Positions 27,637 through 31,420 of a stretch of DNA of 64,000 bases are shown here, piece after piece. The DNA lies in assembly GCA_958299035.1 (NCBI GenBank), contig CATQJL010000316.1:30941441-31005440 (forward strand), read 5' to 3'. The DNA is from Cylicocyclus nassatus. Taxonomy: Eukaryota > Nematoda > Chromadorea > Rhabditida > Strongylidae. A program made the position numbers and the translations under genes. A model generated the notes under the pieces. It had not been told where the DNA came from, did no database searches, and was given only the letters and a program-made list of their open reading frames with translations. How positions within the stretch are numbered: position 1 is the first letter of the stretch; every line of letters begins with the position of its first letter.

Positions 27637-27866
27637 CTGACAAGGGAACCGTGTCGAGTCGAAGTGGCCTTTCCAGATGAGACCCATATTGCTTTGAAGA
27701 GTATTAAGCGGTGAGTCCAAATCTGCTTTCCAAATCTGCCAAGCGCCTCTGGACGCCGAGTTGTGACCGTTTTTCGGAACGAAAAATGAATGCAGAAATT
27801 AGGTAAAATTGATTGTTACAATCTTTCCAGCGCTCAGATAAAGTAATGTTAAGTATTAGCATATAA
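27637..27866. repeat. Inner left arm of the inverted repeat around the LTR element
   Basis: acaagggaaccgtgtcgagt, tctgctttccaaatctgcca and ctggacgccgagt are the reverse complement of 31,530-31,665. Similarity weakens toward the LTR element. The last five bases (27,862-27,866, tataa) are the left target duplication. Confidence 0.75.
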
Positions 27867-28215
27867 TGTAAGCATGTCTACGCATGCTTCTTCGTCGGAC
27901 GATGACTCATATGTTTAGGGCGTGACGACGACGGTCAAGCGAGACCCTCGTGGAGATTCTCCGATGCCACGACACCGAGTGGCCGCTCATCACTCCTCAT
28001 CTTCATCCTCTTTGGGCCGCCGCCGTACCATCAGTGATACACCTGATCTCTTCCTCACGATTTGCCTCATTATTTACGTGTTTATCCCTATGCCAATAGT
28101 GCTCATATATGTTCGGTGCTACTTATTCCTCTTTGGTGCAATAACAGATAAACTATATTAGTTCGGATCGGTATTCTATCAGTTTGCCAGTACGTTTCCG
28201 CGGCGCTACGCTTAC
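27867..28215 (+). repeat. 5' long terminal repeat
   Basis: It starts tgtaagcatgtctacgcatg and ends cggcgctacgcttac. The ends gtaagc and gcttac are complementary. Against the 3' LTR I count about four substitutions and lack of the 11-nt insertion. The usual terminal CA is replaced by AC if the boundary is set by the TATAA duplication. Confidence 0.9.
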
Positions 28216-28233
28216 TGGTAGCAGCGAGTGGTT
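28216..28233. promoter_or_regulatory. Candidate primer-binding site
   Basis: tggtagcagcgagtggtt directly follows the 5' LTR. It begins TGG, the complement of a tRNA CCA end. I cannot name the tRNA without a search. Confidence 0.6.
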
Positions 28234-29693
28234 CCGCCGAGAGGAGTGCAGGTGAGTGGTAAAATTATTCATAAAGCCCTGATGGGCCTCCACCGGTGAC
28301 TTGGCAGCTCGACGTCTGAGAGAAGTTTATCGTGACCGTTTTGACAATTTTTCAAGGGCTTCCAACTTTTTTCCGCAACGCTGGCCAGGTTCCGGAAACT
28401 TGTGTGCCGAATTTTTTGAAACCAAAATGCCAAGCCACGATCTCTTTTCTCAGACGTGATTTCCGCAGTTCCCAGCAGTTTTATGCTGGTAGTTAGTGTG
28501 CACACCTGATGGTGGAAGTCCAGTGAAAAATAGAACGCCAAGAGAATGTTGAACCCAGCGTTTTGAATTGAATTTTGTGAGTGTTATGAGATGTTCTCCC
28601 GGCCGGTTGAGTTGAGTTGAGGTGCGGACTTATGTTTTACGGTTGTGTCGTGTTGTTGGCTCAGGCGTTCGCCCCCTAATTAGTAGTTGCGCGCAGGTAA
28701 GTTGAGCTGGGTGGTAATAGTAGTTGTTTGTCCGCACGGTACTTTCAGCAGTTTTATGCTGATTATCAAATTGCTCCAGCGTAGGGCTAATGACGATTGC
28801 TCAGCTAAGTCTGAGTGTAGTTGATGTTTAGCGATCGATCGCAGTTTCTTTTACCTTGTAGGGCACATCTGGCGACCTAACTTGGAATATTGTTTCTGAC
28901 GCAGCAGACAGGCCAGATGGCAGGCTCATAATGCCATTAGTCTGAATACCAGAACTTCCCGAGTGCGGTTGCTTCTTCTATATTCCTCTGATATTAGATT
29001 TTACTCTGAGTTATGGTGTCCCTATTTCTCTCTAAGTGTACCAGTTTAGTAAGTTAATTTCCTTTGATGCGTGTTTCGCACACAGCTGGTGATACCATGA
29101 AATTTTGAGTTGAGAGCTGAAGACTCAGTTCCGAGCGCTTCCTTTGTCTTGGGAAACGCATTTGAAATTGAAAACGAACGCAGTGGCGCAATTTCGCTTT
29201 TGAAATTTCTCATGCTCAAACCTCGCAATCTCCTTTGTGCGCAACTCTATTCAAACGTTTCATTCCTTTTACACTCGACCTCGTCAATTGAAGTTACGCG
29301 TAGCATGTATTCGGGCCTTCCTTTGAGACTTAAGCTTCTCGTTCATTTCCCAGCTTAGTTTTACTAATTACGCTATGAGAACTCTGAACTTTCAAATAGG
29401 AGATCTATCATTGGATTTGGGTTTCTTCTCATGGATTCAATTTCTTTGGCGGATCAGATACAGTAAGATTGTAAGCAAAGATGTTTCCGAAGGAAAAGGT
29501 CACGGCCGCGTACTTTCTCATGACGAGATCGAAAGCATAGATAGCGAAGCTGAGAAAATGCCACAAAGCGGAAAAGCTTGAACTTTTTGCTTGTTTCTCA
29601 TTACACCGAGATCGCGAGAACAGATATGGCAAAGAAACGAAGTAAATATAAAGTTCATGGCATTTTCCGTGTTCATTTCTTTCATTCCTTGAG
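28234..29693. other. Untranslated interior of the LTR element
   Basis: 1.46 kb between the primer site and the helicase ORF. A good splice donor (gcag|gtgagt) sits near 28,248-28,258. Short frames exist (for example 29,110-29,358) but no gag-like motif, zinc knuckle or protease triad is seen. A 5' leader of this size without gag is unusual. Confidence 0.5.
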
Positions 29694-30872
29694 ATGGCAA
29701 ACATAGATAAGGGTCTGAGGAAATACCAAACAGTTTTGAATATTCAACTTAAGGGTACCGTACTAGCCACGCCCACTCCTGAGACCGACCAAAACATCTG
29801 CCGTCGTTTCAAGGAAGGACGCCTTCGGTTTGAACATTACCAAGGACAAATCAACCAGGAGCTCACAGAGCAGCAGCGGGACGAATATATCCTCGCCGAG
29901 AAGGACGTCTCCAATACGATTGAGAAGATGGTGCGCATCATGTTTAAAGTGCGACCACCACACGTCATCTGCGTGACTACGGCGTCCCTTCTCAACACCT
30001 CGGGACCGAATGGATTATTCGAGAAGTACTTGGGAAGTTTCTCTACTCTAATCAGTGACGAAGCGTCCCAGATCCCCGAGCCGGTGCTCATCGCGATGGC
30101 CAACAGACTCCCTCAGGTTCGTCACATCTGCATCGGCGACGTGCACCAACTCGAACCTCATATCCGATGCTCGAGGAACTCGAACCCAGCCCGTTTCGGA
30201 GCGAAAAGCGTTATGGATGTCCTGATGAGATCCCGAACGGTCCCCGTAGCGTCGTTGGTCACCACTTTCCGTTCCCATCCACGTCTGAACGACCTGCCGA
30301 ACTTCTTCGTTTACCAGGGCCAGCTAAGGAGTGGTGTCACAGAGGCTCAACGTGCACTTATGTTCCGCGCAATGCACCTCCCTGATGGACAGACCCCGTT
30401 TCTATTCTTAGACGTGGCCGGAAATTCGGAGAGGGCTGCGAGTCGCTCCTACTTCAATGAGGCGGAGGCCGAAGTGTGCAGAACGATAGTCCAGCGCTTA
30501 CGAGCCCGATATATCGAACCTTCATCGATATGCATCTTGTCGTTCTACAAGGAGCAATTGCGCAGGCTGTTGCCGTTCGCCCAGAGAAATCAAGTGGAGC
30601 TAGCAACCGTCGACTCCATTCAAGGACGCGAAAAAGACGTCGTCATCTTATTGACAACTCGCACGGATATGACAGCCACTTCTGCCGAATTCCTGGACGA
30701 GTACAAACGATTGAACGTCGCGCTGACCCGGTCCCGCCACGGTATGTTAGTCCTGGGGCACACCGAGTCCCTTTGGAAAGTTCGGTCCTGGACCACCATC
30801 CTTCGTTGGGCTGACGAGCGCCATGCGATCATCCCTGCCACGGATCTCGGTCAGTACCTTCCAGTCGAATGA
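29694..30872 (+). CDS. UPF1/DNA2-type superfamily 1 helicase fragment, intronless
   Basis: 392 residues. Superfamily 1 motifs are visible in order: DEAS (motif II, residues 122-125), GDVHQL (motif III, 148-153), TFRSHP (motif IV, 191-196), VDSIQGREKD (motif V, 306-315) and NVALTRSR (motif VI, 341-348). The order and wording match the AAA_12 C-terminal half of UPF1, DNA2 and ZNFX1-like helicases, which unwind RNA or DNA with ATP. The N-terminal Walker A P-loop is absent, so ATP binding should be lost unless another exon supplies it. The frame is clean over 1.18 kb and its GC-rich codon choice differs from the AT-rich surroundings, which argues for recent function or recent capture. It lies between two LTRs on the same strand. 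A nuclease, transposase or capping function is not indicated. Confidence 0.85.
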   Translation: MANIDKGLRKYQTVLNIQLKGTVLATPTPETDQNICRRFKEGRLRFEHYQGQINQELTEQQRDEYILAEKDVSNTIEKMVRIMFKVRPPHVICVTTASLLNTSGPNGLFEKYLGSFSTLISDEASQIPEPVLIAMANRLPQVRHICIGDVHQLEPHIRCSRNSNPARFGAKSVMDVLMRSRTVPVASLVTTFRSHPRLNDLPNFFVYQGQLRSGVTEAQRALMFRAMHLPDGQTPFLFLDVAGNSERAASRSYFNEAEAEVCRTIVQRLRARYIEPSSICILSFYKEQLRRLLPFAQRNQVELATVDSIQGREKDVVILLTTRTDMTATSAEFLDEYKRLNVALTRSRHGMLVLGHTESLWKVRSWTTILRWADERHAIIPATDLGQYLPVE

Positions 30873-31043
30873 TCTCGAGCAGCTATTCTGGTGAGAATAT
30901 TTGAGCTTTTTCCTGTTTTTGGTTCGCTTTATCTTTGGTTTACTTTTATTTTGCCTTTGCTTCCATCTCCCGTTTTCTACCCAATTCGTCCTCCTCAGAC
31001 TCTGTCAATCCCTAAAATTAAGTCCGAGGACGGACTTGTTGGT

Positions 31044-31055
31044 AAAAGGGGGAGG
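31044..31055 (+). promoter_or_regulatory. Polypurine tract
   Basis: aaaagggggagg abuts the first base of the 3' LTR, as required for plus-strand priming in LTR retroelements. Confidence 0.85.
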
Positions 31056-31415
31056 TGTAAGCATGTCTACGCATGCTTCTTCGTCGGACGATGACTCATA
31101 TGTTTAGAGCGTGACGACAACGGTCAAGCGAGACCCTCGTGGACATTCTCCGATGCCACGACACCGAGTGGCCGCTCATCACTCCTCATCTTCATCCTCT
31201 TTGGGCCGCCGCCGTACCATCAGTGATACACCTGATCTCTTCCTCACGATTTGCCTCATTATTTACGTGTTTATCCCTATGCCAATAGTCGAGTATCAGA
31301 GCTCATATATGTTCGGTGCTACTTATTCCTCTTTGGTGCAATAACAGATAAACTATATTAGTTCGGATCGGTGTTCTATCAGTTTGCCAGTACGTTTCCG
31401 CGGCGCTACGCTTAC
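31056..31415 (+). repeat. 3' long terminal repeat with an 11-nt insertion
   Basis: Same as the 5' LTR except about four substitutions and 11 extra nucleotides at about 31,290-31,300 (within gtcgagtatcagagct, 31,288-31,303). The reverse complement of these 16 bases lies just outside the element at 31,446-31,461. Confidence 0.9.
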
Positions 31416-31420
31416 TATAA

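Follow-up and report, generated by a model that had tools for sequence, protein, structure and literature searches.

Extra genes carried by long terminal repeat (LTR) retrotransposons are often entry-related or of no assigned role, and maize Bs1 is an LTR element holding transduced pieces of cellular genes. The element dealt with here lies at 27867–31415 of a 64,000-nt stretch of DNA, which as a whole is termed the window (positions 30,941,441 to 31,005,440 of contig CATQJL010000316.1, assembly GCA_958299035.1), from Cylicocyclus nassatus, a strongylid nematode that parasitises horses. Between its LTRs is a 392-codon open reading frame (ORF), most of which is the second half of a UPF1-like helicase. 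The element is very probably a non-autonomous deletion derivative of a strongyle Ty3/Gypsy retrotransposon that bears this helicase. Judged from the sequences compared, the helicase is a gene of the retrotransposon family and not one freshly captured here. Like Bs1, the element has gene-derived interior sequence; unlike Bs1, its helicase belongs to the parent element.

In the available parts of the report on bdelloid elements (PMC5408684), Juno, Vesta and TelKA have gag-pol and a family-specific ORF3 in the position of env, and TelKA2n is a non-autonomous form in which the env-like ORF is kept but the end of gag and the greater part of pol are gone. The bdelloid ORF3s described there are env-like, transmembrane, GDSL esterase or DEDDy exonuclease proteins, whereas the nematode third ORF specifies a UPF1-like helicase of ~1,100 codons. 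Superfamily 1 (SF1) helicases of RNA-virus type are carried by insect long interspersed nuclear elements (LINEs; TRAS, Jockey) and by two Ty1/Copia fusions, and the accessible sections of the papers concerned propose that they counter silencing or take part in RNA quality control (PMC4686597, PMC5563155, PMC6338049). What these have in common with the present elements is a retrotransposon with an SF1 RNA helicase. The nematode elements differ, as far as those sections go, in being Ty3/Gypsy, in having a helicase of UPF1/DNA2 type (AAA_11/AAA_12) and in having it in an ORF of its own that is apparently spliced. In C. elegans, Cer1 is likewise an LTR element of a nematode whose extra protein is made from spliced mRNA (a feature deduced from sequence in the present case). 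This protein, CERV, is required for unspliced element RNA to be exported and, in the portion of the article available, is described as a novel protein with no helicase named (PMC10309623). The likeness to the UPF1/SMG-2, SEN1 and DNA2 helicases is one of sequence match to UPF1 and of the predicted fold of a full-length relative. Among the papers listed by open-access literature searches, none was recognised as dealing with an LTR element of nematodes that carries a UPF1-like helicase. From the parts available, accessory ORFs after gag-pol (PMC5408684) are known already, as is the presence of virus-like SF1 helicases in LINEs and in two Copia fusions of insects (PMC5563155); a UPF1-type helicase as the third gene of a nematode Ty3/Gypsy lineage was absent from the papers so listed.

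Sibling elements and the deletion junction

The C. nassatus genome searched comprises 514,686,895 bases in 369 contigs (L-numbers below are labels of genome pieces read, and P-numbers labels of protein matches). The left LTR gave at least 43 match rows in it, and the dispersed LTR relatives expected in an earlier note on this DNA are indeed there. Matches were paired by position, and 13 LTR pairs (the window included) and six single LTRs were read; eight further places with weaker or partial LTR matches were left out. Two pairs delimit full-size siblings, C1:46310896-46325674 (14.8 kb) and C1:49708170-49722790 (14.6 kb). Between their LTRs both have a leader followed by gag, protease (PR), reverse transcriptase (RT), RNase H and, last, a full-length helicase, and in the first of them integrase (IN) is shown by Pfam. 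Three other pairs (C223:63592750, C1:82442763 and C223:18419369) have gag-pol with helicase remnants only. Seven (the window, C316:15671876, C316:71859091, C223:27250985, C112:57281473, C112:83304768 and C316:58567361) have helicase parts and no RT, with gag also present in C316:15671876 and C112:83304768; one (C223:82192221) has neither RT nor helicase. Helicase sequence, remnants counted, is kept in 12 of the 13 pairs and RT in five. Within ~4.7 kb on each side of the six single LTRs there was no leader, gag, PR, RT, RNase H or helicase at E 1e-5.

The window copy itself has no match to the gag, PR, linker, RT or RNase H pieces, and is non-autonomous by content, as had been proposed. No remains of the first half of the helicase were found upstream in the window at E 1, and Pfam on seven other window frames gave TPR and ankyrin only. 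Since the full-size siblings carry both gag-pol and the helicase first half between LTRs of the same kind, the window copy is taken to have lost them by deletion.

The 392-codon ORF (29694–30872, + strand, as are all oriented features below) is a fusion, recognised by comparison with siblings. Its bases 1–96 (29694–29789) are the first 32 codons of the sibling ORF0 (97–99% identical to L013, L014, L017 and L018 by blastn), a short ORF before gag, and bases 97–1179 (29790–30872) are the helicase second half with motifs II–VI, 96.9% identical to the helicase of L012. Leader, ORF0 start, helicase half and tail all match C1:46310896 at 93–99% with one joint, at 29789/29790. By coordinates, 11.2 kb is missing in comparison with that sibling; the lost stretch begins with codon 33 of ORF0 and ends midway through the helicase, and the fusion is in frame. 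The two donors share no base at the joint and there is no GT/AG splice form. A reverse-transcribed spliced RNA as its source was rejected because the donor side lacks GT, and the joint is called a deletion. ORF0 has 105 codons in L013 and L014 and 65 in L018, and its open frame overlaps the gag frame in two of the three copies read for overlap. That codons 1–32 might be gag itself was ruled out, as they belong to this separate short ORF in another frame. The earlier description of the ORF as a helicase with motifs II–VI and no Walker A stands for all of it except these codons.

The helicase and its selection

The ORF matches Pfam AAA_12 at 3.7e-42 and human UPF1 at E 2e-29, and in a comparison of Pfam scores its AAA_12 match is far above that to Viral_helicase1. 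Motifs II–VI are present and Walker A is absent, the helicase homology beginning past it; the window fusion should therefore have no ATPase. Its predicted structure (mean predicted local distance difference test score, pLDDT, 79.6) has UPF1 structures as best matches, and the predicted fold of the full-length relative P0125 covers the UPF1 core, with a template modelling (TM) score of 0.77 by target length to 2gk7. In L012 the helicase has Walker A, and motifs II, V and VI are in the next open segment. Walker A is intact in 49 of the 53 relatives where a loose regular-expression pattern located the region; such motif counts are pattern-dependent, and relatives without a match to the loose pattern were left out. 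The window ORF deviates at two of 84 positions shared by 90% of the others, joint sixth lowest of 34 proteins. In several relatives the N-terminal 100–300 residues are, by eye, of low complexity with RG-rich stretches.

Comparison of the window with the L012 helicase half revealed 30 synonymous and four nonsynonymous changes in 359 codons, a nonsynonymous to synonymous rate ratio (dN/dS) of 0.040 (four of 34, one-sided binomial 8e-15). The ratio is 0.065 for the window and L019 and 0.053 for L012 and L019. It is 0.154–0.233 for the window and the other six copies compared, values which are rough because three of these have dS above 1, and 0.138–0.179 for four further pairs among the copies. 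For pol, L015 against L016, L018, L019, L012 and L013 gave 0.056–0.151, and L015 against L023 was saturated. This shows that the helicase is under strong purifying selection, about like that on pol.

Gypsy association across nematodes

At least 17 helicase frames without stops, of 1,055–1,461 codons, are present in C. nassatus among at least 113 match rows; one further helicase locus, of 1,163 codons, was left out as part of it meets a stop. Five of the 17 were chosen for reading upstream. Gypsy sequence on the same strand precedes all five, pol in L033, L034, L035 and L037, and gag without pol in L036. The L035 copy is only 32% identical to the window protein, yet has pol upstream. [Two pairs of intact frames score equally, C316:21373378/C316:24911898 and C305:76131805/C326:34233701 (1,202 and 1,248 codons), and are likely recent duplicate insertions.]

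Among the matches listed are at least 99 nematode proteins, 93 placed by source name in 14 named species and six by similarity. The non-nematode organism-named rows among the 120 matches listed are archaeal, bacterial, plant or algal proteins. No relatives were confirmed in the viral contig and genome contig collections, and phage records gave only two weak helicase matches. Several gene models join parts of a Gypsy element to the helicase: gag in P0171 (Heligmosomoides) and P0031 (Ancylostoma duodenale, a 5,677-bp contig); protease and linker in P0156 (C. nassatus); linker and an RNase H piece in P0158 (Trichostrongylus); linker in P0165 (Ostertagia); and RT in P0129 (Nippostrongylus). RT excepted, the Pfam matches of single pieces of these models are weak and fall short of the cut-offs (gag 8e-5, protease 1e-4, RNase H 6e-4). 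Neighbouring genes are at times merged in such models, as in P0143, which joins helicase to host eIF2D; the strong evidence for the Gypsy link comes from the genomic copies. Some relatives are on contigs that barely exceed the coding part (P0121, 979 aa in 3,740 bp; P0004, 421 aa in 1,366 bp; P0172, 426 aa in 1,281 bp).

A tree of 43 rows (the window, the 38 of the 99 relatives that cover most of the half, and four outgroups) places the window with P0026 of Cylicostephanus (99/95), beside the hookworm pair P0001/P0127 (94/98), and several of its clades mix species. P0160 of Ancylostoma ceylanicum and P0161 of Necator americanus, of similar size, form a long-branch pair (100/99). They may represent a helicase that hookworms have adopted as a host gene, though C. 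nassatus copies are similarly divergent and the one of these read upstream (L035) has pol.

Anatomy of the parent element

Pfam on the L014/L015 frames gave RVT_1 (2.4e-24), RNase H (1.2e-22, two RNase H models), Integrase_H2C2 (1.8e-17) and rve (1.9e-6), and on L012 RNase H and integrase. The order in L015 is RVT_1, RNase H, Integrase_H2C2, rve, and PR precedes RT. In the gag frame of L014, zf-CCHC (2.4e-4) is above cut-off, with Ty3_capsid (3.8e-6) and Retrotrans_gag (1.4e-4) slightly below theirs; gag compared with solved structures gave nothing meaningful. The RT of P0129 matches Ty3 RT at 1.7e-29 and is 83–84% identical to sibling RTs. The parent has the features of Ty3/Gypsy elements: the domain order, a gag capsid with CCHC knuckle, LTRs, a primer binding site (PBS), a polypurine tract (PPT) and a short target duplication. 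In the seven LTR pairs compared in this respect, the PPT is alike in six and a 4-bp duplication fits six.

The helicase follows pol, and its end and the right LTR are 183–184 nt apart in both full copies and in the window element (183 nt). At its start in both full copies there is, at the sequence level, a GT...AG intron with a long pyrimidine tract, a splice form absent from the eight other pieces examined. The upstream exon has an ERGSSIL-type stretch, seen by eye in P0165 and P0171 also. The parent helicase looks to be made from spliced mRNA.

Parts of the window element and its surroundings

The 5′ LTR (TGTAAG...GCTTAC, 349 nt, 27867–28215) and the 3′ LTR (360 nt, 31056–31415) were delimited by direct-repeat search and alignment. 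They differ by four mismatches in 349 aligned bases and one 11-nt insertion in the right copy (31290–31300), as the earlier note had them, and their likeness is not due to chance, since they match at E 1.7e-165. The TGG primer-site candidate TGGTAGCAGCGAGTGG begins directly after the left LTR, at 28216, a T that may itself belong to the LTR as its final base. The 24-nt form, TGGTAGCAGCGAGTGGTTCCGCCG (28216–28239), is identical in five of the six sibling LTR pairs compared and one base off in the other; it may resemble the initiator-Met tRNA. The 1,478-nt leader (28216–29693) is 93–95% identical by blastn to the gag-pol sibling pieces L013, L014, L017 and L018. The 12-nt PPT AAAAGGGGGAGG (31044–31055), which alignment shows to end directly before the right LTR, is the same in four of six siblings compared, one base off in a fifth and unlike in the sixth. 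The primer-site candidate and PPT reported previously are both borne out. There is a target duplication, but it is probably ATAA rather than the exact TATAA first reported, because T follows the right LTR in all seven LTR pairs compared and a 4-bp duplication fits more of them (six of seven) than an exact 5-bp one (four of seven). This T is probably the last base of the LTR; with T31416 so assigned, the copies of ATAA are at 27863–27866 and 31417–31420.

The 11-nt insertion with five flanking bases is a 16-nt reverse copy of 31446–31461, ~150 nt downstream. An 11-mer match within 200 nt has a chance probability of about 1e-4, and the insertion reads as templated; templated insertions of this sort are left by polymerase-theta end joining. 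On both sides of the element are the arms of a 151-nt inverted repeat (27637–27787 and 31512–31662, 89% complementary), and the element seems to have inserted into the loop of a repeat resembling a miniature inverted-repeat transposable element. Elsewhere in the window, a 53-nt inverted repeat with 9 nt between its arms (91% complementary) is at 32041–32155, and a frame at 22707–23075 with a YIDD stretch is by eye RT-like and has no Pfam match.

Alternative explanations

Several observations count against the derivation favoured here, or limit it. Neither full-size sibling is undamaged. C1:46310896 has two in-frame stops in its helicase frame and a broken gag frame, with pol open through both pieces, and C1:49708170 has breaks in gag and helicase. 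Two of the seven LTR pairs compared, C223:63592750-63603647 and C1:82442763-82453905 (L014-L017), have identical LTRs (0/365) and an open 1,074-codon pol frame and have lost most of the helicase. Because these youngest copies are without most of it, recent transposition does not require the helicase in cis; they may use that of another copy or none at all. The Gypsy link of the five intact frames was read from one upstream stretch each. No second copy with the window junction was found among the 13 LTR pairs, the extent of the search for it, no genome-wide junction search having been made. The role suggested below is by analogy only.

It is unlikely that Gypsy elements, instead of acquiring the helicase once long ago, have captured it repeatedly from a gene family of the host or from one that is mobile in its own right. 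The three gag-pol copies without most of the helicase could be read in this way, as could the P0143 model with its host eIF2D and the hookworm pair P0160/P0161, which may be host genes. However, all three helicase-poor copies keep remnants of the same helicase near their 3′ end, and it is on this account that they are considered to have lost it. In addition, copies 32%, 48%, 51% and 68% identical to the window protein are all behind the same kind of pol, and the gag and the PR–RT linker family are common to gene models of several species.

Quite improbable is the proposal that the window fusion ORF is a selected product, dominant-negative or RNA-binding, of a helicase-only sub-family. The frame is kept, the ORF is intact with very few nonsynonymous changes, and six other RT-less copies retain helicase. 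But one in three random joints keeps frame, and the low dN/dS can predate the deletion, because the window LTRs differ at only four of 349 positions. The six other copies differ in content and all have fragmented helicases, and none of the 13 pairs provides a second instance of the joint.

Capture of a piece of host helicase mRNA by the element in the manner of Bs1, the helicase being a host gene family, is already largely refuted and barely credible: UPF1-like helicases are at depth of cellular origin, the window copy alone looks like an LTR plus gene fragment and many relatives are annotated as ordinary genes, but a full-length helicase follows gag-pol in two siblings, the insert is not absent from autonomous relatives, Gypsy gag or pol is upstream of all five intact frames read, and the window joint connects two parts that such a sibling contains. 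The captured cellular gene of the earlier note is, with this, given up. That note had allowed for the opposite case also, gag-pol between the LTRs of other copies with the ORF as a chance later insertion; the first half of this was found, and the second conflicts with a helicase that is part of an autonomous lineage and under purifying selection. The further LTR-flanked helicase copies that it looked for exist, none of those read having the same junction.

Proposed mechanism and significance

In the favoured derivation from a helicase-bearing Ty3/Gypsy parent, the full form is LTR-leader-ORF0-gag-PR-RT-RNaseH-IN-helicase-LTR, its helicase after pol in what is the position of env in other retroelements. 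An internal deletion fused the start of ORF0 in frame to the second half of the helicase. As LTRs, PBS, leader and PPT are kept, the window copy could be copied in trans by the enzymes of siblings, and its fusion would be translated from the ORF0 start. The full protein would be an ATP-driven UPF1-like RNA helicase acting on the element's own unspliced RNA. It would aid export of that RNA, or protect it against small-RNA silencing and nonsense-mediated decay. This role, considered the most likely, is proposed by analogy with CERV of Cer1 (PMC10309623) and with the proposals for insect elements (PMC5563155), in the parts of those papers available. More tentatively, it is possible, at less than even chances, that a Ty3/Gypsy lineage spread through strongyle nematodes has as its third gene a version of the RNA-decay/small-RNA helicase of the host, with which it counters RNA surveillance or exports and protects its unspliced genome; copies able to borrow the helicase would lose it, and the ATPase-less halves made by deletion copies may interfere.

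The UPF1 family of helicases runs nonsense-mediated decay, and nematodes rely heavily on small RNAs. A helicase under pol-like selection would be a direct handle on how unspliced, intron-bearing retroelement RNA evades nematode RNA surveillance. The findings also suggest that many ‘DNA2/NAM7 helicase’ gene models in the genomes of parasitic worms are transposon genes, which bears on annotation and on any claim that a gene family has expanded.

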